DNA from: an uncultured Desulfobulbaceae bacterium
Lineage (GTDB): Bacteria; Desulfobacterota; Desulfobulbia; Desulfobulbales; Desulfocapsaceae
Reading direction: 5' to 3'
Assembly: GCA_947311315.1 (NCBI GenBank)
Contig: CAMZKN010000070.1
Location: 1-64,000, forward strand
DNA length: 64,000 nucleotides
The stretch's first letter is position 1, and each line of letters opens with the position of its first letter. Shown here one piece after another: positions 5,253 to 52,320 of this stretch. The notes under the pieces were generated by a model. That model did not search any database. It worked only from the letters and a program-made list of their open reading frames with translations, and was not told the DNA's origin. The translations under genes were made by a program, and so were the position numbers.

Positions 5253-5264
5253 AATATTAGAAGG

Positions 5265-6167: not shown

Positions 6168-6175
6168 AAATACAT

Positions 6176-6221: not shown

Positions 6222-6243
6222 AAGAAAAGATTTAACGTTGATG

Positions 6244-7374: not shown

Positions 7375-7679
7375 TTTTTTTCCTCCCTCTTAATAGTTGA
7401 AAATTATACCCCCGCTTTTATAGTCTCTCTTTAAAAGAGAGATGCTGAAAGTGAGCATATGCTACGATGTCGTAATAATAGTCTTTTATAATTCTTTTTG
7501 CAAAATCAAAAAAACACCCTTTTCTAAAGTGAAAAAAAGCAGTGCTGTAGTTTTCAAGTAATATCTACCTTTTTGCTTGCCAGCAATATCATTCTGGTGT
7601 TTTAACAAATCATTGTTCAGGTTTTACCGTCACTGGTAAAAATATTTGCACGTAATAACCTATTTCTCAGGACAAAGCT
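7375..7679. other. Divergent livK/lpxK intergenic region
   Basis: This 305-nt non-coding stretch separates the divergent livK and lpxK genes and should hold both promoters. Two palindromes stand out: TCTCTCTTT-A-AAAGAGAGA (7424-7442), which lies in the livK leader about 50 nt before its start, and TTTTACC-GTCACT-GGTAAAA (7622-7641), about 40 nt before lpxK. Either could be an operator or an RNA hairpin. I could not assign convincing -35/-10 pairs. The lpxK start is preceded by an AGGA motif. Confidence 0.5.
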
Positions 7680-8729: not shown

Positions 8730-8866
8730 TTGTTCTGTCGTGTGTTTTTAAAACAACATTTTTCTCCGTTTCGTGTTATTAACCACACACTTTCAACGAA
8801 GTGCCTTCCGTTGCAATTCCCCTGCATGTTACCGGTATACTGTGATTACTTCACATAAAAACAAAC

Positions 8867-8896
8867 TTGACTACTCAGGCATAAACATTGCATATA
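8867..8896 (+). promoter_or_regulatory. Candidate sigma-70 promoter for lpxC
   Basis: TTGACT is followed after 18 nt by CATATA, about 35 nt before the lpxC start. The -35 is a near-consensus match, the -10 only moderate. Position and the lack of a better alternative support it weakly. Confidence 0.4.
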
Positions 8897-8930
8897 AATA
8901 GTAACTTTAATATTATCCTCAGGACACGCT

Positions 8931-9923
8931 ATGAATATGCCAATTGATCCATTTCAATATACATTAAGAAAACAAGTGAATTGTTGTGGTGTTGGTTTGC
9001 ATTCAGGACGAACTGTTAATCTTACTATAAAACCTGCTGTCGTAAACAATGGGATTCGGTTTTTTCGTAGCGACATGCCCACCAGTGAACATGTTCAGGC
9101 CCATATGGATAAAGTAGTTGATACCCAGCTTGCTACCACAATTGGAAATGACCATTTCCGTATTTCTACAACAGAGCATCTACTGGCGGCCCTTAATGGA
9201 TTTGGTATCGATAATGCTGATGTCGAATTAGACGCCTCTGAAGTGCCAATTATGGACGGTAGCGCTGATCCATTCTTTCAATTGTTAAAAGATTGTGGGA
9301 AAAAACGACAGAAGGGCTTGAAAAAAGTTTTGAGAATTACCAAAACCATCTCTTATTCAGATGGCGATAAGTTGATAACTATTTCCCCTTACGAAGGTTT
9401 CAAAGTTACCGGTGAAATTTGTTTTGATGACACATTAATTGATACCCAAAGATATACTTTTGACCTTGCGATGGGTGGTTTTGGTGACGAACTCGCTCGT
9501 GCCAGAACATTTGGGTATGTTGAGCAGGTTGAGGAACTCTGGGCTAATGGCTTGGCGCTTGGTGGGTCTCTTGCTAATGTGATTGCCATTCACTGGAATC
9601 GTAAATCTGTATTGAATGAAGACGGTTTGCGGTATAAAGATGAGTTTATACGACATAAAGTACTAGATCTCGTAGGAGATCTAGCTTTGTTGGGATGTCC
9701 TGTCTTGGGTCATGTAAATGCATATAAAGTTGGCCACGCACAGCATCTGGGCCTTATGAAGGCAATTGCTGATTCTCCAAAATGTTGGGAATTCATTGAA
9801 ATGAAACGAAACGGTTCCCATTCTGTTCTCGATAAGTTTGCTGCTAAATCAAAAGCTGCAGGTGAAGCTCTTTTGATGCCATTTTTTAATGATCCGTCCC
9901 TTTCTCCCGTTCCCTCTGCCTGA
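8931..9923 (+). CDS. lpxC: UDP-3-O-acyl-N-acetylglucosamine deacetylase
   Basis: This zinc enzyme catalyses the committed step of lipid A synthesis. The sequence has the zinc-site motif TTEHLLAALNGFGIDNADVELD, the RHKVLDLVGDLALLG segment and the C-terminal GHVNAYKVGHAQHLGLMKAI region with the remaining metal and catalytic histidines. Length (330 residues) is close to the usual ~305 with a short C-terminal tail. A good ribosome site (CAGGA) precedes the ATG. It lies downstream of lpxK on the same strand. Confidence 0.97.
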   Translation: MNMPIDPFQYTLRKQVNCCGVGLHSGRTVNLTIKPAVVNNGIRFFRSDMPTSEHVQAHMDKVVDTQLATTIGNDHFRISTTEHLLAALNGFGIDNADVELDASEVPIMDGSADPFFQLLKDCGKKRQKGLKKVLRITKTISYSDGDKLITISPYEGFKVTGEICFDDTLIDTQRYTFDLAMGGFGDELARARTFGYVEQVEELWANGLALGGSLANVIAIHWNRKSVLNEDGLRYKDEFIRHKVLDLVGDLALLGCPVLGHVNAYKVGHAQHLGLMKAIADSPKCWEFIEMKRNGSHSVLDKFAAKSKAAGEALLMPFFNDPSLSPVPSA

Positions 9924-10045
9924 TTGCTGCAATACCCTTTTTATTCTGTGTAGTTTTTCTTTCTCAAACTGTATTACTGCGTCCATACGTGAATTACATA
10001 AATACACTTAGATCAAAATGTGCTCATGCCAAGTTAGGTGACACA

Positions 10046-10073
10046 TTGACTACTTCTTAAAAAGAAGTATACT
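10046..10073 (+). promoter_or_regulatory. Sigma-70 promoter with a palindromic operator-like spacer
   Basis: TTGACT and TATACT are separated by 16 nt and stand about 95 nt before the SleB-type hydrolase gene. The spacer and -10 are covered by an inverted repeat, TACTTCTT-AAA-AAGAAGTA (10051-10069), exactly where a repressor would block RNA polymerase. Promoter assignment is by consensus match, and the operator role is inferred. Confidence 0.6.
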
Positions 10074-10165
10074 TTAACCAGTAGATGGATCTGTTGACGT
10101 GGAAATATAGAGCAGAAAACATGTGTCTGTTTTCCGGTATTAAAAAATAAACGGGGGAATACCCG

Positions 10166-10528
10166 ATGACATTGCTTGAAGGATTGTTGTGGCTTACTTT
10201 AAATGTTTATCACGAGGCGCGTTCAGAACCTCAAATAGGACAAATAGCAGTGGCATTTGTTACATTAAATCGTGCCAATGAAGAACATAAACCTGTAAAA
10301 GATATCGTGCAGCAACCGTACCAATTCAGTTGGACTTTGCAGAAGTCATCATATTTCCCAGAAGATCCGAAAGCATTTCTGGAATGTTTACGCTCTGTCT
10401 ATATTGCCCTGCAAAGCAAAGATTTTACGAAAGGAGCAACACATTATCATCTTGACAGTGTCACTCCTTACTGGACCAGTCAGTATACTTTTTTGAATCA
10501 GTATGGGTCACATAAATTTTATAAATAG
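10166..10528 (+). CDS. Short SleB-type cell wall hydrolase (Hydrolase_2 domain)
   Basis: The 120-residue protein consists almost entirely of a Hydrolase_2 domain like that of the spore cortex-lytic enzyme SleB, a lytic transglycosylase that cuts peptidoglycan. The diagnostic NVYHEARSEP motif at residues 13-22 contains the expected catalytic Glu (E17), followed by GQIAVAFVTLNR. There is no signal peptide or wall-binding domain, unlike most chromosomal relatives, which resembles small phage lysozyme-like enzymes. An upstream palindromic promoter suggests tight control. Its stop codon is part of the 8-bp duplication bordering the adjacent MITE. Confidence 0.8.
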   Translation: MTLLEGLLWLTLNVYHEARSEPQIGQIAVAFVTLNRANEEHKPVKDIVQQPYQFSWTLQKSSYFPEDPKAFLECLRSVYIALQSKDFTKGATHYHLDSVTPYWTSQYTFLNQYGSHKFYK

Positions 10529-10693
10529 GTAACTGCTCACAGGCCCCCCATCTTCGCACGGTCACATTTGCCGGTATAGATGGGCTATAACGGGAAAATG
10601 TGCCTGCACAAATATGGAGCACCTGTGAGCAGTTACAACTCAGAGGTAATAAAAACATGGAGTTATGAACTCCGTGAGTAGTTACATAAATAG
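10521..10693. mobile_element. MITE-like non-autonomous element with 8-bp target duplication
   Basis: The element proper (10529-10685, 157 bp) starts GTAACTGCTCACAGG and ends CCGTGAGTAGTTAC, so its termini are imperfect inverted repeats (12 of 15). It is bounded on both sides by ATAAATAG (10521-10528 and 10686-10693), a perfect 8-bp direct repeat. A second, perfect 15-bp complement of the left end occurs internally at 10622-10636, plus a GGAGTT-ATG-AACTCC hairpin. It has no ORF. GTAA-type ends with 8-bp duplications are a known trait of IS66-family elements, so an IS66-driven MITE is the best guess. Confidence 0.75.
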
Positions 10694-10698
10694 TAGAG

Positions 10699-11901
10699 TT
10701 ATACCTTGCTGGCCAACGTAAGAGCTTTACGCATTGCATTTATTTTGTCTTCGTTCATTATGATGGAAACAGGATAAATAAGCGTTCGAGCCAGCAAATC
10801 AGAGGATGCAGGTAACGCCTGCGGGTCATATACAATTCTTTTTCTTCCTCCAGGTTCTGCAAAGGGGTAGCCGCTGGAAGTGAGTGTTTTCCCTTCGAGC
10901 AAATGTTCCCATTTTGGGAAAAAATGCCAGCTGTTTTCTGAAAAATTTATTGCACCCTGCCCTTCGTTTTTCAAACAATCATTTACTCTTTTACAATGTT
11001 CTGCATTTTCAAGTGTAAATGCGAAAAATGTAGCTGAATCACCATTTTCATCCAGTATTTCACGGAATTTCACCCCGGGAATCCCGGTTGTGACTTCCTT
11101 GAGTTTGCTCTTGTTTTTTTGTTGTTCGGCTACCATGAAATCCAGTTTTGCCAGTTGCGCGATCCCAATTGCTCCCTGTAATTCCATCATACGATAATTA
11201 AAACCGATAAACCGCCTTCCTTCTCCACCCCTTGCTCCAGGGTTTACCTTATGGTCATGACCATGATCCTGATATTCTGACATTGAACGCCATAAATCCT
11301 CATTGTCGGTGATAATCATGCCACCCTCACCGGTTGTCATTGTTTTTACTGAATCAAAGGAAAATGTGCCACAATCTCCAAATGTACCAAGATGTTGCCC
11401 CTGGATTCGACATCCTGCAGCCTGGGCAGTATCTTCAAGTACACAGATGTTGTGTTTGTTTGCAATAACAACAATTTGTTGGATATTAGCTGCAGCGCCA
11501 AGCATATGGACAGGAATAATACACTTTGTCTTTGAAGTAATTTTCTTTTCCAGATCAGCCGGATCCATATTAAGGGTAGTATCAATTTCTGTAAAAACAG
11601 GGATCGCCCCAACCTCCAAAATTGCTTCCCAGGTGGCAACAAAGGTGAAGCCCTGGGTTATAACTTCATCACCGGGACCTACTCCTAATGCTGTAAGAGC
11701 GACCTTTAGAGCTGCTGTGCCTGAAGTCACTGCCTGACTGAACCGGCAACCGCAATATTGAGAGAATTGTTCCTCAAATTCTCTGACCTTAAACACACCT
11801 TTCCGTTGTTCGTTAAATTCGTAACGGAACAGCACACCTGTATCAAGTACATCCGCAATCTCTTTTTTTTCTTCCTTTCCGAAAATTTCAAACCCAGGCA
11901 T
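10699..11901 (-). CDS. DegT/DnrJ/EryC1/StrS family PLP aminotransferase
   Basis: Members of this fold-type I family typically transfer an amino group to nucleotide-linked keto sugars for surface polysaccharides or secondary metabolites. The N-terminal TSGTAALKVAL phosphate-binding segment, the VLEDTAQAAGC aspartate region and the cofactor lysine K186 in SFDSVKTMTTGEGG are all present. Length is 400 residues, and a strong ribosome site (GAGGAG) precedes the ATG. It is downstream of panC on the same strand, with no other sugar genes nearby, so its substrate is unknown. The MITE lies immediately beyond its stop. Confidence 0.88.
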   Translation of the reverse strand: MPGFEIFGKEEKKEIADVLDTGVLFRYEFNEQRKGVFKVREFEEQFSQYCGCRFSQAVTSGTAALKVALTALGVGPGDEVITQGFTFVATWEAILEVGAIPVFTEIDTTLNMDPADLEKKITSKTKCIIPVHMLGAAANIQQIVVIANKHNICVLEDTAQAAGCRIQGQHLGTFGDCGTFSFDSVKTMTTGEGGMIITDNEDLWRSMSEYQDHGHDHKVNPGARGGEGRRFIGFNYRMMELQGAIGIAQLAKLDFMVAEQQKNKSKLKEVTTGIPGVKFREILDENGDSATFFAFTLENAEHCKRVNDCLKNEGQGAINFSENSWHFFPKWEHLLEGKTLTSSGYPFAEPGGRKRIVYDPQALPASSDLLARTLIYPVSIIMNEDKINAMRKALTLASKV

Positions 11902-11927
11902 TTTCTGCTCCTCTTCATTATCTCATT

Positions 11928-12782
11928 TTAATCTGGAAAAAGTCGACCATTGTCAATGAGCCGAACCGTACCATCAATTTTAGCCGCAAGAACAAGTATG
12001 GAGTCACTAGAAACAACGACATCATCGAGTAATGTAGACTCGTCTTTTAATACTGCATATTCCAGAGCAGCACCAGCCCTGGCGATAATCTCTTTAGTTT
12101 GCTCGATAACCGTTTGAGCCAGAATTTTGTCCCTGCTCTCAGTTACCAGTTCGCGGGCGGCAATAATTGAGCTATAGAGGCAAAGTGCCTGTTGCCGAGA
12201 ATCACCGTGCAAATATTTATTTCTTGAACTCATTGCCAACCCATCGTCCTCACGGACTATTGGGCTGCCTATAATCTGAATTGGAAAATTGAGATCTTTG
12301 ACAAGCTGACGAATTACTGCTAGCTGTTGGAAATCTTTTTGACCAAATACGGCACTGTCAGCACGAGTCAGGTTGAACAGTTTTGCAACCACAGTCGACA
12401 CGCCGTCAAAATGACCGGGTCTGTCTTTACCGCACATCCCCTGGGAGAGTTTTGAAACTGTAACAGCAGTCTGAAAAGAATCTCCGTACATATATTTGTT
12501 TTCAGGGCAGAAAACTGCGTCAACCCCTTCATTTTCTGCCAGTTCACAATCTATGACAAATTGTCGAGGATAAGACGCAAGATCTTCATTTGGGCCAAAT
12601 TGCAGAGGATTGACAAAAATGGAAACGATAACTTTACCACCCATATCTTTTGCTTTGCGCATAAGAGACAAGTGACCTTCATGCAGACAACCCATGGTTG
12701 GTACAAGGGAAATAGTTTGCCCTTGTTTTTTCCATGAAGATGTCAGCTGGGAAATATCGGTTAATGAAGGAACTATTTTCAC
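11928..12782 (-). CDS. panC: Pantothenate synthetase
   Basis: PanC condenses pantoate and beta-alanine using ATP, the last step of pantothenate and hence coenzyme A precursor synthesis, in the cytosol. The nucleotidyltransferase HxGH motif is seen in PTMGCLHEGHLSL (H34-H37), the FGQKDFQQL segment is intact, and GLAMSSRNKYL replaces the KMSKS-type loop as usual. Length (284 residues) is standard. It uses a GTG start overlapping the stop of the upstream TPR gene (GTGA), so the two are translationally coupled. panB and panD are not in the window. Confidence 0.96.
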   Translation of the reverse strand: MKIVPSLTDISQLTSSWKKQGQTISLVPTMGCLHEGHLSLMRKAKDMGGKVIVSIFVNPLQFGPNEDLASYPRQFVIDCELAENEGVDAVFCPENKYMYGDSFQTAVTVSKLSQGMCGKDRPGHFDGVSTVVAKLFNLTRADSAVFGQKDFQQLAVIRQLVKDLNFPIQIIGSPIVREDDGLAMSSRNKYLHGDSRQQALCLYSSIIAARELVTESRDKILAQTVIEQTKEIIARAGAALEYAVLKDESTLLDDVVVSSDSILVLAAKIDGTVRLIDNGRLFPD

Positions 12783-13474
12783 TGTTTAGCCTTCAACATT
12801 GCAATTCTTGATAGAACTTCAGCGCGTGATTGTGCAAATGAAGGATCGTCACCTGCAGTGAGAATAAAGTTATTGTAAATGGCAATTGCTTTATCGTCAT
12901 TATGTTGTGCTTCTTCCAATCGTCCTAAACTCATATAACCAACATGCTTATAGCCATCAATTTCTTTAAGCAGATCGTAGTTTCTCCCGGCATCGGGATA
13001 TTTTTCACTAGCCTCAAAGGCCTGGGCCAGTCCAAAAAGAACCAGAGGATACAACTGGTCATTAGCACCGAGTGATGAAAGCAGTGCACCATATTTTACT
13101 GCAGCCTGTTCGTAATCACTTTTTTGCATATCAAGATGAGCAAGTTCTACTTTAGCCCACAAACCTGAGGTCGTTGATCCATACTGCTCAGTCACCTTGG
13201 AAAGTGCATCTGAACGTAGCGATGATTCCTGCAGCATTGCCTGGGATAATGCTGAGGCGGCTTCTTCACGGACACGATCCTTATAGGATCCATAAAATGA
13301 CCAGAAGACTATAGCAGCTATAAAAACAATAATTGCAAAAAGTAACGCCCTATTGTTTGCACGGATGAATTCAATTACCTTAGGGGACAGATTTAAATGG
13401 TCGAGCACACCTTCAACTTTATCCATTTTGGTTTCTGCTGTCAGCCGCTTATTATACGCACTTTCGTGGGACAT
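12779..13474 (-). CDS. YfgM-like membrane-anchored TPR protein
   Basis: The 231-residue protein has a cytosolic N-terminal tail, one membrane segment (about residues 43-61, ALLFAIIVFIAAIVFWSFYG) and a C-terminal periplasmic region of TPR-like helices (tetratricopeptide_9 / TPR_21 type). This matches YfgM, which in E. coli is an accessory factor of the SecYEG translocon and links to periplasmic chaperones. In E. coli yfgM neighbours bamB, whereas here it precedes panC. A strong GAGGAGGAAAT ribosome site fixes the start. Family assignment is by architecture, so the exact role is inferred. Confidence 0.75.
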   Translation of the reverse strand: MSHESAYNKRLTAETKMDKVEGVLDHLNLSPKVIEFIRANNRALLFAIIVFIAAIVFWSFYGSYKDRVREEAASALSQAMLQESSLRSDALSKVTEQYGSTTSGLWAKVELAHLDMQKSDYEQAAVKYGALLSSLGANDQLYPLVLFGLAQAFEASEKYPDAGRNYDLLKEIDGYKHVGYMSLGRLEEAQHNDDKAIAIYNNFILTAGDDPSFAQSRAEVLSRIAMLKAKQ

Positions 13475-13616
13475 GCGATTTCCTCCTCGTCATTTTTAGT
13501 CGTATTTTTATATTAAAAGAGAGAACACAAGTTGACCTATATAATATATAGCGGTATGTCTGTCTATGCGTAAACATCGAGAATATTCACTCTTCACCTT
13601 CATTATCTGAAATCAT

Positions 13617-14972
13617 ATGCCCTCCTTTGCAAGTCAAACTGTTCTCACTGTCACTCAACTGACTCGATCAATTAAAACAATTCTTGAAAACGAATATCGT
13701 TTTATCCGTATCAGTGGAGAAATATCCAACCTCAAGACTCCATATTCCGGCCATTCTTATTTCACCCTAAAAGACGGCAGCTCTCAAATTAGAGGTGTAT
13801 TGTTTAAACAGCAAAAAAGATATCTCAATCTCTCTTTGAAAGATGGCCAACAGGTTATATGTTTTGGGCGAATTACGGTATATGAACCAAGAGGTGATTA
13901 CCAGATTATTGTTGATACAGTGGAATTGTTCGGCACAGGTAAATTACAGATTCAATATGAGAAATTAAAACAAAAACTGTTGGACAAAGGCTATTTTGAC
14001 GAATCTCAAAAACAGTCCCTCCCGTTATTTCCTCGAAAAATCGTTATTATTTCCTCGGCAACAGGGGCTGCAATCCATGATTTTCTAAAGATTGTTAAAA
14101 ACAGAAATTCCCACATGCATCTTCAGATTATTCCTGTAAGAGTTCAGGGGAAAACAGCTGCATCGGAGATTGCGAAAGCCATTGCATCAGCAAATACCCT
14201 TGCTGGAGTAGAGATTATAGTTCTTTGCCGAGGGGGTGGATCTCTTGAGGATCTCTGGGCTTTTAATGAAGAAGAAGTCGCCGAGGCGATTTTTTTAGCA
14301 GAGATACCAATCGTGACCGGCATAGGACATGAAATAGATTTTACAATAGCTGATTTTTGCGCAGATTTCCGATGCCCTACGCCCACAGGCGTTGCAGAAA
14401 AAATAATACCTGATAATGATCAGCTAAAAAAACGTCTGACAGTACTGAGAACAAGCCTTGTAAATCGCATTCGACAGAAAATAAATATTTCAGAGCAGGA
14501 ATTAGATCACAGGATAAAAGCACTTGGCAGCCTGAAAACAATCCTTAGCAGCTCTTCTTTCAGATTGTCCATGAGTGAGGCTATGCTCTGTCGGGTAATG
14601 GAAAAACAACTGGCAGATAAAAGCAGAACTGTGTTTGAATTGCGCCAAAATCTTGAGTCAAAAGCTCCTTTGTCACGCATAAAATTACAGGTAAATCGCC
14701 TGCATTTTTTAACACGGCAACTCAAACAAGGTATTGAAAATATTCTTGCATCCCGACAGGCTGAACTCGCAGGGTATGCAAACCTGTTAAACGGAGTAAG
14801 TCCTCTGGCAACGCTTGCAAGGGGCTATTCAATTGTCAGAAAAGTTGACAAACCAGGTGGAAATTATCGTGTGATATCAAAAGTAACTGACACGTTTGCT
14901 GGTGACAAAATTAATATACTATTACATGAAGGGCAGATAGATTGTACCGTGAATACAGTTCAGAAAGATTGA
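13617..14972 (+). CDS. xseA: Exodeoxyribonuclease VII large subunit
   Basis: XseA is the catalytic subunit of ExoVII, a single-strand DNA exonuclease used in repair. The N-terminal OB fold (FIRISGEISNLKTPYSGHSYFTLKD) is followed by the catalytic domain with the conserved VLCRGGGSLEDLWAFNEEEVAEAIF and GIGHEIDFTIADFCADFRCPTPT segments and a coiled-coil C-terminal region. Length is 451 residues. The small subunit gene xseB, often adjacent, is not found next to it. Its 3' end faces ndk. Confidence 0.96.
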   Translation: MPSFASQTVLTVTQLTRSIKTILENEYRFIRISGEISNLKTPYSGHSYFTLKDGSSQIRGVLFKQQKRYLNLSLKDGQQVICFGRITVYEPRGDYQIIVDTVELFGTGKLQIQYEKLKQKLLDKGYFDESQKQSLPLFPRKIVIISSATGAAIHDFLKIVKNRNSHMHLQIIPVRVQGKTAASEIAKAIASANTLAGVEIIVLCRGGGSLEDLWAFNEEEVAEAIFLAEIPIVTGIGHEIDFTIADFCADFRCPTPTGVAEKIIPDNDQLKKRLTVLRTSLVNRIRQKINISEQELDHRIKALGSLKTILSSSSFRLSMSEAMLCRVMEKQLADKSRTVFELRQNLESKAPLSRIKLQVNRLHFLTRQLKQGIENILASRQAELAGYANLLNGVSPLATLARGYSIVRKVDKPGGNYRVISKVTDTFAGDKINILLHEGQIDCTVNTVQKD

Positions 14973-14991
14973 GATGTTTGGGGCAAATTAA

Positions 14992-15038
14992 TACGGTGCA
15001 CCTGATCATGAGTCACAACCCATAAAAGGCGCACCGTA
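14992..15038. terminator. Hairpin between convergent xseA and ndk
   Basis: TACGGTGCACC pairs with GGCGCACCGTA with one mismatch across a 25-nt loop, in the 74-nt gap between convergent stop codons. No clear T-run follows on either strand, so it may help termination or simply protect transcript ends. Confidence 0.4.
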
Positions 15039-15046
15039 CGGTAACG

Positions 15047-15460
15047 TTAGAGTAATTCCAGTCCTGAGAAAAAATAACCGATCTCAAATGTTGCTGTTTC
15101 AGGGGCATCCGATCCATGGGTTGCATTTTCTCCAAGAGAAGCACCGAATTCACGACGCAGTGTGCCTTCAGCCGCATCAGCCGGGTTTGTCGCCCCCATC
15201 AGATCCCTCCATTTCTGGATTGCATTCTCTGCTTCAAGTACCATGACGACACATGGTCCACTCGACATAAATTCTGTGAGTTCTCCGAAAAATGGTCTTT
15301 CTTTGTGGACGTAATAAAAACCCTCTGCCTCAACCTGACTTAAAAAAAGTTTCTTCAAACCAACAATTTTAAAGCCTTCTTCATAAATACGGCTGATAAT
15401 TTTTCCACTGTTGCCATCTGCGAAAGCGTTCGGCTTTATTATTGCAAAAGTTTGTTCCAT
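15047..15460 (-). CDS. ndk: Nucleoside diphosphate kinase
   Basis: Ndk balances nucleoside triphosphate pools by a ping-pong transfer through a phosphohistidine. The active-site motif [10 protein letters not shown] places the catalytic histidine at H115, and the N-terminal [10 protein letters not shown] and the [15 protein letters not shown] regions are typical. Length (137 residues) is normal. An AGGAGA ribosome site precedes the ATG. It is the last gene of a long minus-strand run, 39 nt after the orphan secreted-protein gene. Confidence 0.97.
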
Positions 15461-15499
15461 GCTGAAAATCTCCTGAAATATAATAATTTGATTGTGCAG

Positions 15500-15979
15500 T
15501 TAATCCCTCAAAAGTGTTTCTACTTCATCACCTATCTGGGCAAGAACGAGAGTAAGGTAGCCATTATCTTTATTGGCAGCTTCTTTCAGGCTGTCACCCC
15601 AACTGTCGAGCTGATTTGTGTCAATCTTTCTAACAGTATTATCCTTGGACCATTCAGTTCCAATAATAATGCCCATACGCTGAATAAAGCGTCTGATCTG
15701 TTTTTGTTTTTCTATTGGATACTGGCTTACAATTGACTGGGAAATGTCTTGCCAGCCATCAAAGAACAATACACCTTCGTTAAATCTCTGGTACCATTTG
15801 AGTTGGTCTGCATCCAAAGAATTAATGATATCCTGATCAATTGGTAAAATGTTCAGGAATTCCAATTCTTTAGTTCTGTTTTCATATTCATCGTTCTGGG
15901 CCGCCGAAACATGTAAGACAGTACCAAAATAAAAGAGTGCCACCGGGAAAAACAACCGATAAAAAGTATGCAGTTTCAT
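15500..15979 (-). CDS. Small secreted protein of unknown function
   Basis: I do not recognise a family. The first ~27 residues (MKLHTFYRLFFPVALFYFGTVLHVSA) form a clear signal peptide, and the remaining ~130 residues are polar with a helical look, including the motif LDADQLKWYQRFNEGVLFFDGW. There are no cysteines in the mature part. It lies 26 nt downstream of cbiB and 39 nt upstream of ndk, so it probably shares their transcript, but nothing in the sequence ties it to cobalamin metabolism. Periplasmic or secreted location is the only firm inference. Confidence 0.6.
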   Translation of the reverse strand: MKLHTFYRLFFPVALFYFGTVLHVSAAQNDEYENRTKELEFLNILPIDQDIINSLDADQLKWYQRFNEGVLFFDGWQDISQSIVSQYPIEKQKQIRRFIQRMGIIIGTEWSKDNTVRKIDTNQLDSWGDSLKEAANKDNGYLTLVLAQIGDEVETLLRD

Positions 15980-16005
15980 GACAACGTTGTAAGGTCAGAA
16001 TAAAT

Positions 16006-17001
16006 TTAATACATCGTAGCAGCGCCATAGAGGCACATCATTAACACAAAGAAAATCAATGCACCGACGATTGCGAGACGATGTGTTCTCAATATATCTT
16101 CAGGAGATATCTTTTGATAACTGTCTCCCATAAAGGGTTTTTCTACAATTGTACCAAAATAGACAGATGGTCCTCCGAGTTTCACTCCAAGAGCTCCGGC
16201 TACAACGGCCTCAGGATGGCCCGCATTTAGGCTTGAGTGTTGCAATCTATCTCTAAAAAAGATTCTCGTTGCACCTCTGTAATCCAATTTTAAAAAAAAT
16301 GCAGCCATAATAAGACAAATACTACTTATTCGAGCCGGAATAAAATTCACAAAGTCATCGAGTTTAGCAGCAACTCTACCAAAATTGAGATAGGTCTCAT
16401 TTTTATAACCAATCATTGAATCAAGTGTGTTCACCGATTTATAAAAATAAGCACCAGCTGCAGAGCAACCGATTGGTGAAATATTTAAAAAAGATGAAGC
16501 TAAGCCTGCAGTTATTGCAAAGAAAAGTGGCGCAGTTATACCATCAACCATGTTTTCAGCCACTGTTTCAATACATGCTTTACTTACATCCTCACTGTTC
16601 AGTTGTTGAGTATCCCGGCCAACGATTTGTCCAAGTGCCTGTCTTGCGCTATCAAGGGAGTCTTCTTTAACAAGAAGTGAATAAACAGTATTGGAATGTT
16701 TCAAGAGATCTCTTGCAGCAATGGCTGTGTACAACAAAACGATGGAGATAATATCACCGAAAATTGAATCAATGGAATATGCTGTTATCACAATAGATAA
16801 AACAACCAGAGTTGTGGTAATGATCACAATACCGACGGTTACCATGCCAGCAATAACTTCCGCTGCGATAAATCTTCGTGTAATGTTTTCACTAAATGTA
16901 CATAACCTTCCTATAATTCTAACCGGATGTGGATACCAGTGCGGATCTCCGAAAAGAATATCCAGAAATATGGCGATTGAGAGCTGAAAAAAGTAGGTCA
17001 T
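16006..17001 (-). CDS. cbiB: Adenosylcobinamide-phosphate synthase (CbiB)
   Basis: This membrane enzyme attaches (R)-1-amino-2-propanol phosphate to adenosylcobyric acid, giving adenosylcobinamide phosphate. The N-terminal LDILFGDPHWYPHPVRIIG motif, the IVGRDTQQLN segment and SLNAGHPEAVVAGALGVKLGG near the C-terminus are characteristic, with several membrane segments. Length is 331 residues. It follows the CobD-CobQ fusion by 15 nt. The fusion supplies both substrates: the amidated cobyric acid and the aminopropanol phosphate. Confidence 0.95.
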   Translation of the reverse strand: MTYFFQLSIAIFLDILFGDPHWYPHPVRIIGRLCTFSENITRRFIAAEVIAGMVTVGIVIITTTLVVLSIVITAYSIDSIFGDIISIVLLYTAIAARDLLKHSNTVYSLLVKEDSLDSARQALGQIVGRDTQQLNSEDVSKACIETVAENMVDGITAPLFFAITAGLASSFLNISPIGCSAAGAYFYKSVNTLDSMIGYKNETYLNFGRVAAKLDDFVNFIPARISSICLIMAAFFLKLDYRGATRIFFRDRLQHSSLNAGHPEAVVAGALGVKLGGPSVYFGTIVEKPFMGDSYQKISPEDILRTHRLAIVGALIFFVLMMCLYGAATMY

Positions 17002-17016
17002 CGTGATGATATGTTT

Positions 17017-19590
17017 TTACAGTCCCATGATGTTATAGATACGATTCATATCGACATTTTCTCTCAGGCAGGCAGCCAATCGGTCAAATGCTTCTTCAAG
17101 ATCGTAGGGAGCAACTATTTCTCCAACAGGTGAGATACCGATGTTACTCCGTAGCCTGTCTATAAACCAGCGCCTGAAAGCATCTCCGTCAAATATTCCA
17201 TGCAGATAACTTCCCCATATCTGTTCAGACCTGCTCATTGATCCACATGTGCTTCCATCATTAAAGCGCACTAAAGGGGCACTGTCTACAGTTGAGACAC
17301 CATGGTGAATTTCATATCCGGATATTGTTTTTCCGGACAGAGAATGGACGCCTTCTTTTCTTGTAAGTCGTTTATCTCTTTCTATAACTGTTTCGATATT
17401 GAGATAACCAAGGCCGGACAATATTTGGCCGTCCGCTGATTCGATTTCAAAGGGATCTTTTATTGCTTTACCAAGCATTTGGTAGCCACCGCAGATTCCG
17501 ACAATTTCGCACCCAGCCTCAATACATCTGTCAATTTCACTGACAAATCCTGCAGATTTCAAAAAAGCAAGATCGGAAATCACATTTTTTGAACCAGGTA
17601 AAATAATAGCCTGAGGAGAGCCAAGTTTAGATGCTTTTTCAATGATTCTCAATGTTACATCCGGTTCATTTAGAAATGGCTCAACATCTGTAAAATTGGA
17701 AATATGAGGGATGCTTATAACCGCAATTTCCACGCCTTCATCTGTGGATTTGACACTATTAAAACTCCCCTTCTTAAAGGAGACGGAGTCTTCCTCGGGT
17801 AGACCAAGATTCCCTATATAAGGTACAACCCCAAGGACCTCACGACCGGTATGCATTTTCACATACTCGTGGGCTGATGCTAGCAGCGATGACTGGCCCC
17901 GAAACTTATTGACGAGAAATCCTGCAACAAGTTGTCGTTCCCATTCGGCAAGAACCTCCATAATGCCAACAAAAGACGCATAAACACCACCTCTGTCAAT
18001 ATCACCAACGATCAAAACAGGTGCCTCTGCATATTTGGCCATTTTCATATTGACAATATCATCGCGTTTGAGATTCACTTCACCGGGGGAACCAGCACCC
18101 TCTAAAACAACGACTTCATATTCATCTGCCAGTGAATCAAAACTTGCACACACCGATTGCCAAACCTTGGGTTTGTAACCATTATATTCGAGAACCGTCA
18201 TATTACCCACAGGCTGCCCTTTAACTATTATCTGGCTGCCCACATCAGAATTTGGTTTAAGAAGGATCGGGTTCATTCGACTATCGGGAATAACACCTGC
18301 GGCTTGGGCCTGAACGACCTGGGCCCTACCCATTTCATCGCCATGAAGAGTCACAAAGGAATTAAGAGACATGTTTTGGGATTTAAACGGGGCAACCTTC
18401 AATCCATCCTGGTGGAAAATCCTGCAAAGAGCTGCCGTAATAATTGATTTTCCGGCATCAGAACATGTGCCTTGCAGCATAATTGAACTCTGTTTTTTGG
18501 GAGCGACAACTTTTTTCGGTTTGGTTGATTTATTTGAAAAAAAACTTTTGAATGTGGCAATTAATCTGCTGTTTTCTTGATTGTTTTTCACAGCAATTCT
18601 GAAATAATTATCGTCGAGACCTCGATAATTGTCACATTTGCGGATCATAATCCGCCTGGATAGGCAAAAAAATGCTAAATCTTCAACATTCCCCCCCGTG
18701 ACCATTTTAACAAAAAGATAGTTTGCTGTAGCCGGGTAAACATACAATTCGTTAAAGGTTTGGAGTGATCGAATTAGATTGTTGCGCAGTTCAGTACAAT
18801 TAAGCCTTGTTTCTTCCTGATAAACAGTGTCTTGCAAAGCCCTGGTTCCAACAGCCTGGGCCAATGAATTTACTGTCCAGGGTGGAAGGTTTTCTTTGAT
18901 ACGTTTGGCAAGTTCAACAGGGAAAATGCCATACCCGATCCGCAACCCGGGAACACCGTAAAATTTAGTCATCGAGTTCATCGTCATAACATTTGGCGCA
19001 ATTGCACCATATGGTTGCTCTCCGTCGACAAAGTCAAGAAATGCTTCGTCTATGAGAAAGTAACTCGATGAAAACTCTTCGATCAGGGAACAGAGACTCT
19101 TTCTGTCAACAGTCCTGCCCGTTGGATTATTGGGAGTTGCAATAATAACCAGATCACCAGCTTCAATGATCAAGGAAAGTTGTTTGAAATTGAGGATAAA
19201 ATCGTCTTCTTCACGTATATCAACCGTAGTAACCGACATTCCCCCAAGTTCCGCAGCTCTTATATAATCAACATAGGACGGAACAGGGATGACAGCCTTT
19301 TTACAGGGCAATATTCTCGTTAGAGTATACAGCAATTCCGTAGTACCATTTGCTGCGACGATATGGTCGCATGATATGCCTGTATGTCTACTGATTGCCT
19401 CTACAAAAGAGGTGTTTTCAGGGTCCGGGTAGTGAATGAGGTTTTCAAGATTATTTGAGATGAATGGACGTAACCATTCAGGCGGTCCAAGGGGATTAAT
19501 ATTGGCGCTGAAATCCAGAAGTTGTTTCCCATCGCCTGGAGAGTTCCGCAGGATTTTATGTATATTGCCACCGTGTTCAAATGTTTTCAT
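17017..19590 (-). CDS. Fusion of threonine-phosphate decarboxylase (CobD) and cobyric acid synthase (CobQ)
   Basis: Residues 1-350 form a HisC-like PLP enzyme matching CobD, which decarboxylates threonine phosphate to aminopropanol phosphate. ATPNNPTGR, DEAFLDFVDGEQ and the PLP lysine K209 in NSMTKFYGVPGLRIGYG are intact. After a Lys/Pro-rich linker (351-368), residues 371-857 form a complete CobQ: the ATP-binding segment GTCSDAGKSIITAALCR, PFKSQNMSLNS, and a glutamine amidotransferase domain with the nucleophile in VGICGGYQMLG and HG at GSYLHGIFD. CobQ amidates adenosylcobyrinic acid a,c-diamide. Both halves are full length with no frameshift, so the fusion appears real. It begins 6 nt after cobS. 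Confidence 0.93.
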   Translation of the reverse strand: MKTFEHGGNIHKILRNSPGDGKQLLDFSANINPLGPPEWLRPFISNNLENLIHYPDPENTSFVEAISRHTGISCDHIVAANGTTELLYTLTRILPCKKAVIPVPSYVDYIRAAELGGMSVTTVDIREEDDFILNFKQLSLIIEAGDLVIIATPNNPTGRTVDRKSLCSLIEEFSSSYFLIDEAFLDFVDGEQPYGAIAPNVMTMNSMTKFYGVPGLRIGYGIFPVELAKRIKENLPPWTVNSLAQAVGTRALQDTVYQEETRLNCTELRNNLIRSLQTFNELYVYPATANYLFVKMVTGGNVEDLAFFCLSRRIMIRKCDNYRGLDDNYFRIAVKNNQENSRLIATFKSFFSNKSTKPKKVVAPKKQSSIMLQGTCSDAGKSIITAALCRIFHQDGLKVAPFKSQNMSLNSFVTLHGDEMGRAQVVQAQAAGVIPDSRMNPILLKPNSDVGSQIIVKGQPVGNMTVLEYNGYKPKVWQSVCASFDSLADEYEVVVLEGAGSPGEVNLKRDDIVNMKMAKYAEAPVLIVGDIDRGGVYASFVGIMEVLAEWERQLVAGFLVNKFRGQSSLLASAHEYVKMHTGREVLGVVPYIGNLGLPEEDSVSFKKGSFNSVKSTDEGVEIAVISIPHISNFTDVEPFLNEPDVTLRIIEKASKLGSPQAIILPGSKNVISDLAFLKSAGFVSEIDRCIEAGCEIVGICGGYQMLGKAIKDPFEIESADGQILSGLGYLNIETVIERDKRLTRKEGVHSLSGKTISGYEIHHGVSTVDSAPLVRFNDGSTCGSMSRSEQIWGSYLHGIFDGDAFRRWFIDRLRSNIGISPVGEIVAPYDLEEAFDRLAACLRENVDMNRIYNIMGL

Positions 19591-44390: not shown

Positions 44391-45056
44391 TCACCATTTT
44401 ATGGGTGGCAGCTCATTACGTTGAAGGTACTCGTTACATTTAACAAAAACATCAGAACCAAGAAAGCCCCTGTGTGCAGAAAGTGGTGATGGGTGGCTTG
44501 TGGCCAGGACGAGGTGTTTGCTCTCATCAATCAAGCCTCTCTTCTTTTGAGCAAATGCACCCCATAGCATAAAAACGATAGTTGTTTTTTTCTTTGCAAT
44601 AGTTTCAATGATGCTGTCTGTTAATTCATGCCAGCCGAGCTTGCTGTGAGAGTTTGATTGCTTTGCAACAACTGTAAAGCTGGCGTTGAGCAAAAGAACA
44701 CCTTGTACTGCCCAGCGTGTCAAATCAGTCTCGGTGCTGACCTGCCGCCCTTCGTAGAGGCTTCTATTAACTTCTCTAAGGATATTTCTAAGTGATGGTG
44801 GAACAGGCATTCCCTCTCGAACCGAAAAACATAAACCATGAGCCTCCGGGCCCAGCATGGGATGTTCGTTGATATATGGATCCTGTCCGATAATAACTAC
44901 TCTGGTATTGCCGAGAGAAGTCTCCCTCATTGCTGCAAAGACATTTTCGCGTATAGGGAATATTTTCTTTTTTCCTGCCTGGCCTTCATAAGCTCGTTGT
45001 ACAAGATCCTTATGTACGCCCTGCTGCATCAGGGGAACATTTTCTTCCCAAAGCAT
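44391..45056 (-). CDS. ung: Uracil-DNA glycosylase
   Basis: Family 1 UDG that removes uracil from DNA, starting base excision repair. The catalytic aspartate lies in IIGQDPYINEHPMLGPEAHGLCFSV (D59) and the second site HPSPLSAHRGFLGSD contains the conserved His. The usual GQDPYHGPGQAHGL reads here with His replaced by Ile and about five extra residues, a variant of the active-site loop. Length is 221 residues. A GAGGAA ribosome site precedes the ATG. It ends the minus-strand proBA-nadD block and converges with nnr. Confidence 0.92.
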   Translation of the reverse strand: MLWEENVPLMQQGVHKDLVQRAYEGQAGKKKIFPIRENVFAAMRETSLGNTRVVIIGQDPYINEHPMLGPEAHGLCFSVREGMPVPPSLRNILREVNRSLYEGRQVSTETDLTRWAVQGVLLLNASFTVVAKQSNSHSKLGWHELTDSIIETIAKKKTTIVFMLWGAFAQKKRGLIDESKHLVLATSHPSPLSAHRGFLGSDVFVKCNEYLQRNELPPIKW

Positions 45057-45109: not shown

Positions 45110-46336
45110 TTATGCTGCCACTATATTGACTTTTGCGCTGTAATGAAGGTTTTTTATCTTTTCTACCAGTTCCAAAGAGCTACAGGTCTCCAGGATATGA
45201 CATTTTGCGAGAGTATGTTGACTCATTTGCTTGCAGTAACATTCTTCCGGATCCAGCACGACAGGAACACCTTCATTCTCAATCAGTGTACCAATCCCTC
45301 TATCACCTTCATTTTCCAGACCTGAAAGAAGGACCCCTGCCAGTCTTTTTTTCATTATAATACTGGCTGAAGTAAGCAGAACATCAATCGCACCTTCTCC
45401 AGAGAATTTTTTTTCCACTTTTTGTAAAGTTAATTGAGCGGTGTAAGGTCTAAGACTCATATATTCCTGAGCGGAAGTTATATAACAATTACCGCCTTCA
45501 ATTGTTATTCCATTCCTTGCACGAATGACTTCCATTTCAGAGATGGCATCAAGATATTCTGTAAAATTATTCAGATGTTCAGTAGTTGCATGAATAACTA
45601 CAATTATTGCACCTCCCATCTCGGGTTCGAAATGTGGAATAATATGCAAAAGATTTGCAAAACTACCTTCTCCCCCTCCAATTACGGTAATAAAAGTGTT
45701 CCGTCTAAATTGTTTCTGAGCAGACAGGCTGAGATCAATAATATCACCACAGTGAGTACAGGTTACACTGTTGGCAGAGCTTGATTTCCTGTTCAGATTC
45801 ACAACTTCCTGTTGACCGCATTCTTCACAGAAAACCACTTGTTTATCGGTTTTTTGATTAGCTTTGCTATCCGGGGAAGGTGTCAAAACTGGTTCTTTGG
45901 CTCTGGTTATAATGCGGGCAGCTCTTCTTATTTTATCTGTAAGTAATTTTTTGTGACTTTGTTGGTTATTCTCATGAAAGATGAAATCTTTGCAGATAAA
46001 ATCAACGGCACCATTTTTCATTGTATCAAAGCAGCGAGCAGTTCCTTCGTCAGTAAGACTGGAAAACATAATTGTCGGAGTTGGGCGATGAATCATCAGG
46101 TGCTGCAATGCTGTCATACCATCCATCAGAGGCATTTCGACGTCGAGCAAAATAACATCAGGTTTTGTCTTTAAAACCATATCGAGAGCTTCAATTCCGT
46201 TTTCCGCTTCACCCACAATCTCAATATCTTCACAATCTTCTACAATGTCACCAATAAATCGCCTGAAGACGAGAGAATCATCGACCACAAGGATAGAGAT
46301 TTTCTTCCGACAAATTGTAACATTTTGATTTTTCAT
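45110..46336 (-). CDS. CheB-like response regulator with degenerate methylesterase site
   Basis: Residues 12-135 form a receiver domain with acidic residues D19/D20 and phosphoacceptor D65 (ILLDVEMP). A linker carries two CxxC pairs (C170/C173, C193/C196), a likely zinc ribbon. Residues 215-405 align with the CheB methylesterase domain, but the GASTGG nucleophile motif is GGGEGS (Ser replaced by Gly222), His249 is retained in VVIHATTEHLNNFTEYL, and the catalytic Asp of GNDGA is Glu343 in ENEGDRG. It is therefore probably not an active esterase. No chemotaxis genes are nearby. It follows nadD by 50 nt. Confidence 0.85.
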   Translation of the reverse strand: MKNQNVTICRKKISILVVDDSLVFRRFIGDIVEDCEDIEIVGEAENGIEALDMVLKTKPDVILLDVEMPLMDGMTALQHLMIHRPTPTIMFSSLTDEGTARCFDTMKNGAVDFICKDFIFHENNQQSHKKLLTDKIRRAARIITRAKEPVLTPSPDSKANQKTDKQVVFCEECGQQEVVNLNRKSSSANSVTCTHCGDIIDLSLSAQKQFRRNTFITVIGGGEGSFANLLHIIPHFEPEMGGAIIVVIHATTEHLNNFTEYLDAISEMEVIRARNGITIEGGNCYITSAQEYMSLRPYTAQLTLQKVEKKFSGEGAIDVLLTSASIIMKKRLAGVLLSGLENEGDRGIGTLIENEGVPVVLDPEECYCKQMSQHTLAKCHILETCSSLELVEKIKNLHYSAKVNIVAA

Positions 46337-46386: not shown

Positions 46387-47031
46387 CTAAGGAGTTCTGT
46401 AAAGATTATTAGCCTCTATATAATTAATTACCTTTTCAGGGAGATACTGTCGAGGAATTTCGTTTTTTATGAACATTTCCCTGATAATTGACGAACTGTG
46501 AGAGTCTGGGACTTTTTCTAGAAAAAGGACATCTTTCATACTGTGAATGCCTTTCCATCTCTTCCCTACCTGGGTAAAGCCAAGATCACGTAAAAAATCT
46601 GTTAAAAGAGCTTTCTGTAATCCTTTTCTATTTGCAATAACAACATGAACACGTTTAAAAATATCCTGATAGGATTTCCACCCTGGAAAATCAAGTAACG
46701 AGTCGCCACCAATGATAAAAAACAACTGTGAATCAAGGTTCTGTCTTTGCAAGTGTTTTAATGTGTCAATGGTATAGGATGGTTTTGGTAAGTCCTTTTC
46801 AACATGACTAACAGAGAAATTGTTTTGAGAGGAACAGACAATCTCTAGCATGGCAAGTCGATGACGAAAAGATGAAATATTTAAATGTTCTTTGTGCGGA
46901 GGATGTGCTGCAGGGATAAAAACAATTTTCTCAAGAGAACATTCCTTCAGTGCTGCTCCAGCTAATTGAAGATGTCCAAAATGCACAGGATCAAATGTTC
47001 CCCCGAGTATACCAATTCTTTTTTCTGTCAC
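46387..47031 (-). CDS. nadD: Nicotinate-nucleotide adenylyltransferase
   Basis: NadD adenylylates nicotinate mononucleotide, the penultimate step of NAD synthesis. The nucleotidyltransferase motif GGTFDPVHFGHLQLA and the C-terminal SSSIIREMF loop are intact over 214 residues. It starts at GTG overlapping the proA stop (GTGA) and so is coupled to proline synthesis genes, the arrangement obg-proB-proA-nadD being common in this lineage. No ribosome-silencing factor gene rsfS follows, which is where it is often found. Instead a CheB-like gene comes next. Confidence 0.96.
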   Translation of the reverse strand: MTEKRIGILGGTFDPVHFGHLQLAGAALKECSLEKIVFIPAAHPPHKEHLNISSFRHRLAMLEIVCSSQNNFSVSHVEKDLPKPSYTIDTLKHLQRQNLDSQLFFIIGGDSLLDFPGWKSYQDIFKRVHVVIANRKGLQKALLTDFLRDLGFTQVGKRWKGIHSMKDVLFLEKVPDSHSSSIIREMFIKNEIPRQYLPEKVINYIEANNLYRTP

Positions 47032-48284
47032 ACCCGGACCTGTCCCTGTCCATAAATAACAAATTTCCTTGTTGTCAGTTCTTCGAGCCCCATCGGGCCA
47101 TAAGCATGAAGTTTGGTAGTGCTTATGCCAATCTCTGCTCCCAACCCAAGCTGTCCTCCATCATTAAATCGAGTTGAAGCATTGACCATGACAGCAGAAG
47201 CATCGATCTCTGCAATAAATCGTTGAGCAGTAGTATAATTTTCAGTGACAATTGATTCTGTATGGCGCGATCCATACCGCTGGATGTACGCTTTTGCATC
47301 GTCAAAAGATGTAACAATTTTCACACAGAGAATTAAATCGAGAAACTCAGTTCCCCAATCGCTTTCTTCTGCTGCAACTATATGGGGTAATATAACCTTG
47401 CTTCGTTCACAACCACGTAATTCAACACCTTTTTCCGCCATACTATCCGTAAGCTGTTTCAAAAATGTTTCAGCAACAGCTTCATGTACAAGAAGTCCTT
47501 CAAGTGCATTGCAGACGCCAGGACGATGCGTTTTGGAGTTAATCGTAAGACGTACTGCTTTTTCAAGATCTGCTTCTTTATCAATAAACAGATGGCAGAC
47601 ACCTTTGTAATGTTTAAGAACCGGTATCCTGGAATTTTCTGTGACAAAGCGGATGAGACCTTCACCACCTCTTGGAATAACGAGGTCGATCTCTTCCTCT
47701 AAAGAGAGAAGCTCGGTTATGGCTGCTCTATCAGTAGTTGGAATAACCTGTATAGCATCTACTGATATCTGCTGAGCAGCAAGTGCTTTTTTAAATATTG
47801 CAGCAAGTGCAATGTTGGAGTGAATAGCTTCTGAACCACCTCGAAGGATTACGCAATTTCCGGTTTTCAAACAAAGAGCAGCCGCATCGATTGTAACGTT
47901 AGGCCGGGACTCATATATCATGGCAATAACTCCAAGCGGTACCCTCATCCTGCCAACAAGTAATCCATTTGGTCTTTTGACTAAATTTTCAATGCCTCCT
48001 ATAGGATCAACCAGAGAACATAACTCACGAAGGCTTGTAACCATCGAATCGATAACATTGTCGGAGATGGTCAATCTATCGAGCATTGCCGGAGAAATAC
48101 CTTTTGATTGAGCTGCAGCGATATCTTTTTTGTTTTCCGTTTGAATATATGATTTTTCTTCTAGCAAAAGATCAGCTACAGACAACAAAACCCTGTTTTT
48201 AGTTTCTGTTGAAAGAACAGCCAGAGAAGCTGAGGCATCTTTTGATTTTTGTGCCAGTTCTAAAATTTCCTTTTTAATTTCCAT
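47028..48284 (-). CDS. proA: Glutamate-5-semialdehyde dehydrogenase (gamma-glutamyl phosphate reductase)
   Basis: ProA reduces gamma-glutamyl phosphate to the semialdehyde in proline synthesis. The catalytic cysteine lies in THRPGVCNALEGLLVH, and SRPNVTIDAAALCLKTGNCVILRGGSEA and FNDGGQLGLGAEIGISTTKLHAYGPMG are typical. The ORF track begins at 48302, but AAAGGAG is correctly spaced before the ATG at 48284, giving 418 residues. It lies 31 nt after proB. Confidence 0.96.
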   Translation of the reverse strand: MEIKKEILELAQKSKDASASLAVLSTETKNRVLLSVADLLLEEKSYIQTENKKDIAAAQSKGISPAMLDRLTISDNVIDSMVTSLRELCSLVDPIGGIENLVKRPNGLLVGRMRVPLGVIAMIYESRPNVTIDAAALCLKTGNCVILRGGSEAIHSNIALAAIFKKALAAQQISVDAIQVIPTTDRAAITELLSLEEEIDLVIPRGGEGLIRFVTENSRIPVLKHYKGVCHLFIDKEADLEKAVRLTINSKTHRPGVCNALEGLLVHEAVAETFLKQLTDSMAEKGVELRGCERSKVILPHIVAAEESDWGTEFLDLILCVKIVTSFDDAKAYIQRYGSRHTESIVTENYTTAQRFIAEIDASAVMVNASTRFNDGGQLGLGAEIGISTTKLHAYGPMGLEELTTRKFVIYGQGQVRV

Positions 48285-48315
48285 CTCTTCTCCTTTGAAC
48301 AATACGGTAAACTGT

Positions 48316-49473
48316 TTAGAGCAGGACTAAGTTATTTCTATGTAACACTTCATCGTACTCTTTATACCCGAGTATGGATTCTATTAAATTTGTCTGTTGC
48401 CCCTTTATCTTTTCAAGGTCTTCTGCTTTAAAATTAGTTAAGCCCACAGCAATAGCCTCCCCTGACTCACTCACACACTGAACAGAATCTCCTATATCAA
48501 ATTCACCTTTTACAGAGATCACTCCAGAAGGCAATAGACTTCGACCTCCTTTTGCAAGAGCTTTACAGGCTCCGGAATCAAGTTCCAACGTGCCTTGTGG
48601 CTTCAACACATAAGCTATCCATCGCTTACGCCCCTGCATTTTTTCTTTATGTGGTAGAAAAAAAGTCCCTAACAGTTCTCCTGAAAAAAGATGTTTCAAT
48701 ATGTCGTCTTGCCGTCCAGGACCAATAAATGAACTGGCGCCGCCAATTGCGACCATTTGGGCAGCAAGAATTTTGCTCTGCATGCCGCCTGTGCCCAGTA
48801 CACTTTTGCTGTTTCCAGCCATATTCAAAATTTCTTCGGTCACTTTTTCAACGGTATAAATGATTTTAGCAGTCGGGTCTGTAGTGGGGTTTTTGTCATA
48901 AAGGCCATCAACATCTGTCAGGCAGATAAACATATCAGCCTCTATAAGGTTTGTGACCAGAGCTCCCAGGTTGTCGTTATCACTGAATTTCAATTCTTCA
49001 GTGGAAACAGTGTCGTTTTCATTAATAACAGGTATTACGCCAAGTTTAAAAAGTGTCTGGATAGTATTACGAATGTTAAGATATCGTTTTCTATTGGAAA
49101 GATCGGAATGGGTGAGGAGGATCTGGGCGATGTTTTTTTTATTGCGGGCAAATGCTTCATCATAGTCATGCATAAGGCAGGATTGACCTATAGCTGCGAG
49201 AGCCTGTTTCTCCGGCATGGATAGTGTTTTACTGTCACTGTATTGCAGTTTGCGTTTTCCTGCTGCAACAGCGCCGGAAGTAACTAAAATCACCTCCCTG
49301 CCACTGTTATGTAAAAATGAAATTTCCCTGGCAAGGTTGTGTAATACATGACGATCGAGACCGTTTTTATCTGCGAGAACTGCACTCCCAACTTTTACGA
49401 CGATCCTCTTTGCCTTGTCAAACAGAGTCTGTCGATAATAGAGACCTTCTTCAAATTCTATCTGTAAACTCAT
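48316..49473 (-). CDS. proB: Glutamate 5-kinase
   Basis: ProB makes gamma-glutamyl phosphate, the first and feedback-controlled step of proline synthesis. The amino acid kinase domain (VVKVGSAVLADKNGLD, VTSGAVAAGKRKL, PVINENDTVSTEEL) is followed by a C-terminal PUA domain of ~110 residues. The ORF-track start is a TTG. I prefer the ATG at 49473, four codons in, which follows the obgE stop by 12 nt. Length is 385 residues. Confidence 0.95.
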   Translation of the reverse strand: MSLQIEFEEGLYYRQTLFDKAKRIVVKVGSAVLADKNGLDRHVLHNLAREISFLHNSGREVILVTSGAVAAGKRKLQYSDSKTLSMPEKQALAAIGQSCLMHDYDEAFARNKKNIAQILLTHSDLSNRKRYLNIRNTIQTLFKLGVIPVINENDTVSTEELKFSDNDNLGALVTNLIEADMFICLTDVDGLYDKNPTTDPTAKIIYTVEKVTEEILNMAGNSKSVLGTGGMQSKILAAQMVAIGGASSFIGPGRQDDILKHLFSGELLGTFFLPHKEKMQGRKRWIAYVLKPQGTLELDSGACKALAKGGRSLLPSGVISVKGEFDIGDSVQCVSESGEAIAVGLTNFKAEDLEKIKGQQTNLIESILGYKEYDEVLHRNNLVLL

Positions 49474-49485
49474 ATTGTTCCACAA

Positions 49486-50579
<1,094 letters not shown>

Positions 50580-51590: not shown

Positions 51591-52037
51591 TTACACAGAG
51601 TATTCAAGGCGTGCTTTTTCTTTTTCCTGACGAATAGCACAAGCTCTTGCAAAAGCAGACTTTTTCCCATGCTTGGCAATGGAAACAGAAGTTTTGCCCT
51701 GTTTACCCTGATGGGTAACCCAACTTACTTCATATCGGTTGAGCTTGTCATTGAGACGAACACCAACAACACCAGTACCGGAATTGCTGACAGTAACCAT
51801 ATGTTTGTTCGTTCTGACTTTCCCAAGCTTTTTTTCTGTTTTATCACGCCACGAAATTGCAGAAAGCAAACTGGAATACCTGCCACCACATTTCCTGTCT
51901 GAGAAAAATTTTGAGTGTGTTTTACCTAAGAACCGAACCCGTACATACCAACCATGCGTTCTTTTCGATTCCTGATCAATTCTGGCTATATCCTTATGCT
52001 TTTCTAAAAGGATCTTTTGTTTTTTATCATCTTCCAT
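51591..52037 (-). CDS. AP2-domain DNA-binding protein
   Basis: A 148-residue basic protein. Residues about 85-140 (GTGVVGVRLNDKLNRYEVSWVTHQGKQGKTSVSIAKHGKKSAFARACAIRQE) match the AP2/ERF DNA-binding fold found in plants, phages and some bacterial mobile elements. Residues about 15-70 look like a diverged second copy (HGWYVRVRFLGKTHSKFFSD). The ORF track begins earlier, but AGAGGAAAATTT places the start at 52037. There is no nuclease or integrase domain attached. It lies alone between rplU and mazG. A transcription-factor or former homing-element role is a guess. Confidence 0.75.
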   Translation of the reverse strand: MEDDKKQKILLEKHKDIARIDQESKRTHGWYVRVRFLGKTHSKFFSDRKCGGRYSSLLSAISWRDKTEKKLGKVRTNKHMVTVSNSGTGVVGVRLNDKLNRYEVSWVTHQGKQGKTSVSIAKHGKKSAFARACAIRQEKEKARLEYSV

Positions 52038-52320
52038 AAATTTTCCTCTATATATTTTAAAACATGTTGTCATTTGGAGTGAAGAAATCCTGATGACAAC
52101 TATTAACAGTGAATGTACAGTACTCACTGCGAAGTGGAGAAGATGTCAATAAATAGCTCCTCAACCTGACAACACCCTCCAGCAAAGCTACTTAGTTGCT
52201 CAAGGGAATAAAGTCAACATTTTTTACTCTTCAGTTAGAAGAAAACCATTGAATTATCGGCCGTTCCGGGTATTTCTTACAATAATCTTACAATAATAAT
52301 ACTAACCACAACCAGCAAAC

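Follow-up and report, generated by a model that had tools for sequence, protein, structure and literature searches.

A CheB-derived response regulator of the Desulfocapsaceae that lacks the catalytic serine: a probable receiver-gated binding protein outside chemotaxis

Annotation routinely treats a CheB domain as the mark of a chemotaxis methylesterase. In the genome paper of Desulfocapsa sulfexigens, two CheBs are placed under chemotaxis (PMC3739170). One of these, UWK_02813, may be a copy of the gene described here, as its gene number fits the position of that gene in a similar genome. The gene lies in the window, the stretch of 64 000 nucleotides of Desulfocapsaceae DNA that was analysed, and encodes a receiver joined to a CheB-type domain in which the nucleophile serine is replaced (pseudo-CheB; Table 1). 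The question is what such a protein does, and whether it still belongs to chemotaxis.

Table 1. Features of the pseudo-CheB locus, with positions in the window
Feature	Position	Strand	Basis
Pseudo-CheB gene (response regulator with receiver, zinc ribbon and pseudo-CheB domain, in this order)	45110..46336	(-)	ORF, ATG start, 408 aa
Receiver domain, residues 13-118 (D19, D20, D65, S92, K116)	45983..46300	(-)	Pfam PF00072
Four-Cys zinc-ribbon-like module, residues 164-203 (C170, C173, C193, C196)	45728..45847	(-)	Cys in 54/54 relatives
Pseudo-methylesterase domain, residues 214-390	45167..45697	(-)	Pfam PF01339, dN/dS
G222 codon (aligned with the CheB nucleophile Ser)	45671..45673	(-)	Alignments to 1A2O/6YMZ; Gly in 53/53
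H249 codon (aligned with the catalytic His)	45590..45592	(-)	His in 26/55 relatives
E343 codon (aligned with the catalytic Asp)	45308..45310	(-)	Asp 44/54, Glu 3
nadD, upstream neighbour, 50-bp gap	46387..47031	(-)	Synteny kept in relatives
proA, proB, obg, remainder of the conserved upstream run	47028..50526	(-)	Synteny
ung, downstream neighbour, 53-bp gap	44391..45056	(-)	Adjoins the gene in most relatives

Both domains of the window protein are matched by Pfam above cut-off, Response_reg over residues 15–118 (E 2e-19) and CheB_methylest over residues 218–386 (E 1e-25), and the profile match to the Salmonella-type CheB 1A2O extends over the full length (E 1.7e-53). The receiver has the residues expected of a response regulator, namely an acidic pair, a phospho-acceptor (D65), S92 and K116, in agreement with the functional appearance attributed to it in a preliminary description of the sequence. 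In phmmer and hmmsearch alignments, the motif GGGEGS lies opposite the GASTGG of 1A2O and 6YMZ, as had been proposed, and the catalytic triad reads G222 for Ser, H249 for His and E343 for Asp. Between the two domains are two CxxC pairs (C170/C173 and C193/C196) in a CxxC-x19-CxxC arrangement. This spacing is typical of structural zinc ribbons. Curated zinc-ribbon Pfam models gave several matches to the window protein, all of them sub-threshold. A single-sequence AlphaFold2 model of the protein was unreliable (pLDDT 39, pTM 0.23).

An alignment of 56 pseudo-CheB sequences, all from the window's family (Desulfocapsaceae), reveals Gly at the nucleophile position in 53/53 relatives, and each of the four ribbon cysteines is kept in 54/54, giving the two CxxC knuckles with invariant Cys that mark a zinc ribbon. 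The loss of the Ser and the conservation of the Cys pairs between the domains, both anticipated in the preliminary description, thus extend to the orthologues and are not a product of chance. The remaining triad positions are less uniform: His is present in 26 of 55 relatives, i.e. it is lost in more than half, and the catalytic Asp is still Asp in 44 of 54, with Glu, as in the window, in three. Among the triad changes, only the loss of Ser characterizes the family, and E343 is a peculiarity of the window. The preliminary description took the three triad residues together, with His alone kept; this holds for the window sequence but not for the family. S225, considered as a substitute nucleophile, is ruled out, since the position is Ser in just 12 of 53 relatives and Gly, Cys or Ala in most. 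In the canonical CheBs of the same family (29 read), GxSTGG, QHMP and GMGxDG are present throughout, and there is no CxxC in the linker and no ribbon; at one further locus (L109), the GxSTGG motif was not readable.

D19, D20, D65, S92 and K116 of the receiver are retained throughout the family, with the exception of two degenerate sequences, from genomes G039 and G055. In the G055 copy, D19 and S92 are changed. The G039 copy (L114, 5431–6699) has lost all of the receiver phosphorylation residues, and its ribbon and pseudo-esterase domain remain. In G040, a single-contig genome, the gene at the same locus (L127, 6438–7106) encodes a receiver and ribbon only (223 aa), the esterase domain having gone.

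Pseudo-CheB, including its dead esterase domain, is under purifying selection. Pairwise dN/dS, calculated by the Nei–Gojobori method for 14 close pairs, was about 0.07–0.22 for the whole protein and about 0.05–0.16 for the dead domain, and purifying selection was also seen in a pair that includes G073, a genome without a CheA or MCP match. Of the three segments, the ribbon is under the weakest constraint, with inter-Cys loops that vary freely, yet its cysteines never change, as is consistent with a structural metal site.

The gene was found in 49 of 60 sampled genomes of the family, a count that sets aside G022 and G056, where the matches cover the receiver only. Full-length relatives, at about 41–63 % identity, are found both within the window's genus and in further genera of its family. 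Among 193 genomes at class level, full-length matches of such strength were confined to the window's family, the hits in other families being paralogues, and in a phylum sample of 297 genomes the window genome alone matched at E 1e-58 or better. A search of genome contigs for related loci gave just two, with similarity at the level of the receiver; L001, the one that was read, is not an orthologue. Among the families sampled, pseudo-CheB was found in this one and not elsewhere.

Within the family, the gene (X) forms part of a conserved run, rplU-obg-proB-proA-nadD-X(-ung)-nnr, the exceptions being contig ends and the copy in G055 (L126), which lies outside that context. No che genes were seen next to it at any of the loci examined, in the window or in relatives, and the conserved neighbourhood contains no metal or redox genes. 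The proBA-nadD-ung context without che genes that had been described holds for the neighbourhood but not for the genome, which has a canonical CheB (GISTGG) in a cheW-cheB-cheR cluster elsewhere, as well as CheA. Clean losses are evident in G011 and G056, with nadD–ung spacings of 59 and 183 bp, respectively; in G064 and G054, the spacing without the gene is 234 and 719 bp, and the frames show no obvious remnant. The stability of the locus suggests a role tied to the neighbouring genes, but may equally reflect shared transcription. Near rplU, at 51591–52127 (-), there is also a gene for an AP2-domain protein (PF00847, E 1.5e-10). Its copies in the family and the order share 74–96 % identity, and it is often better conserved than ribosomal protein L21, encoded nearby. 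Such conservation is unusual for an AP2 protein.

In phylogenetic trees, the window's group is a single clade (support 100/100), which joins a lineage of CheB paralogues from chemosensory clusters of the Desulfobacterota (branches 95/89 and 96/89). Its nearest relatives outside the clade are CheB paralogues clustered with MCP, CheW, CheY and CheA. Some members of this lineage elsewhere in the phylum (L162, L163 and L165) keep the Ser (GASEGGY), which places its loss inside the lineage, after the lineage arose. Cluster paralogues within the order Desulfobulbales have Ala or Gly at this position, and the loss in these and in the window's group may represent either one event or several. When the phylum was searched at 1e-55 with the alignment of the paralogues, canonical CheBs were recovered as well, and the tally was therefore not used as a count of pseudo-CheB. 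The chemosensory clusters L158, L156 and L160 encode up to three CheB-type proteins, several without the Ser/His. The L158 cluster (3988–18138) is from G042, a member of the window's own family; it has three CheB-type proteins, together with PilZ proteins, an ABC transporter of the NMT1 type and a ParA-like ATPase that gives a zinc-ribbon hit.

Gene content bears on the link to chemotaxis. The CheA dimer domain is absent in 17 of the 60 family genomes, the MCP signalling domain in 15 and both in 15; some of these 15 genomes are incomplete drafts, and four (G073, G037, G038 and G039) are 94–97 % complete. Pseudo-CheB is present in 10 of the 15, compared with 39 of the 45 others, which is not a significant difference (Fisher p 0.12). 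Several of the CheA/MCP-free genomes have no other CheB-type gene, and neither does any of the five genomes sampled from genus g25. It is conceivable that pseudo-CheB still serves a chemosensory array, its dead domain binding the methylation helices of MCPs and competing with CheB or CheR. Its nearest relatives in clusters with CheA, CheW, CheY and MCP are consistent with this, as are the presence of MCPs in most genomes that carry it and its coexistence with a canonical CheB in the window genome. A role of this kind nevertheless seems unlikely, as the gene is kept where CheA and MCPs are absent, shows no significant tie to them and is never adjacent to che genes; in its persistence without CheA and MCPs and its lack of adjacent che genes, it also departs from a CheB of a chemosensory pathway. 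The best reading is that pseudo-CheB has left chemotaxis.

The four-Cys module might alternatively be a sensor, in which reversible zinc binding, or disulfides formed under oxidative stress, gate the output. The cysteines are invariant even where the receiver has decayed (G039) or the output domain is missing (G040), and a redox switch might profit anaerobes. Their spacing, however, resembles that of an ordinary structural ribbon, as the sub-threshold Pfam matches also suggest, and free variation of the loops and a neighbourhood devoid of metal or redox genes make a sensor distinctly improbable. From the sequence pattern, the zinc site is probably structural. Of the two roles offered in the preliminary description for a receiver-controlled protein derived from CheB, binding fits these observations, and metal sensing was discarded as the principal interpretation, as nothing connects the gene to metal homeostasis. 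Loss of the Ser may, by itself, be compatible with a different chemistry, and the protein could be an enzyme with a site elsewhere on the CheB fold, e.g. around C284 and C366, which are kept in 53/54 and 54/54 relatives, respectively. C366, however, lies opposite a Cys found also in canonical CheB (ASCVV in 1A2O and 6YMZ), C284 is common to the cluster paralogues, whose relatives retain the original Ser, and the whole domain is absent in G040; a new enzyme is thus very unlikely. The clean losses in G011 and G056, the seemingly non-coding sequence left in G054 and G064 and the domain loss in G040 could be taken as signs of a decaying, functionless pseudogene lineage, but this is scarcely credible in view of the low dN/dS, the retention of one locus across many genera and the intact frames of almost all copies.

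Universal loss of the nucleophile, together with purifying selection, an intact receiver and persistence without CheA and MCPs, fits a receiver-controlled binding protein, and the gain of the ribbon likewise suggests that pseudo-CheB is probably switchable and not an enzyme. On these comparative grounds, we favour, with moderate confidence, a non-catalytic, receiver-gated binding or adaptor protein that derives from CheB and acts outside chemotaxis; confidence in any specific binding partner would be much lower. In such a protein, a histidine kinase would phosphorylate D65, and phosphorylation would alter how the receiver packs onto the output domain, as in CheB, here across a rigid hinge held by zinc. 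Re-packing could expose or hide a protein-binding surface on the former esterase domain, and pseudo-CheB would thereby be an adaptor that can be switched, or a factor that sequesters its partner, with an RssB-like logic that does not imply homology. Loss of the output domain in G040 and decay of the receiver in G039 indicate that a two-part switch is not universal. A more tentative proposal, which we regard as possible but doubtful, is that these proteins constitute a family-specific class of response regulator independent of chemotaxis, in which the CheB esterase has become a phosphorylation-gated, zinc-ribbon-held adaptor beside obg-proBA-nadD, possibly regulating a product of that run (ribosome assembly, proline synthesis or NAD synthesis).

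A literature search, with subscription papers mostly outside its reach, found nothing relevant on inactive CheB or on CheB combined with DUF4388. Pseudo-CheB calls for caution in automatic annotation and when chemotaxis systems are counted. It also completes a natural series, from cluster paralogues with the Ser, through those without it, to a dead version that is free of chemotaxis and has a module resembling a metal site, and makes it tractable to follow how an enzyme of the response-regulator type becomes a non-catalytic signalling output.

Among known systems, CheB itself (PF00072 and PF01339; 1A2O) has the same order of receiver and esterase fold, and pseudo-CheB differs from it in the Gly for Ser, the unconserved His, the inter-domain ribbon, the lack of che neighbours and survival without CheA/MCP. 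The closest lineage in the tree, the cluster CheB paralogues with an EGGY or STGGY motif (e.g. L157, 9568–10608; L155, 9186–10964), shares the C284-type Cys with pseudo-CheB; unlike it, these paralogues belong to che clusters that contain CheA, CheW and MCP and have no central ribbon, and several bear an N-terminal DUF4388. The same clusters encode Zn_ribbon–receiver–CheB-like (–PilZ) proteins (L156, 2852–4087; L158, 3988–5709), which resemble pseudo-CheB in having a zinc-ribbon motif, FCE(E/D)CG, and a CheB-type domain that lacks the Ser-His-Asp set, but their ribbon is N-terminal and they form a very long, separate branch of the tree. A further parallel is with RssB, a response regulator whose partners, sigma S and ClpXP, are known. 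RssB-type response regulators (PMC7226468) work in a way to which pseudo-CheB may be likened, in that the receiver controls an adaptor output domain; the likeness is one of operation, as the output domain of RssB is not homologous to that of pseudo-CheB.
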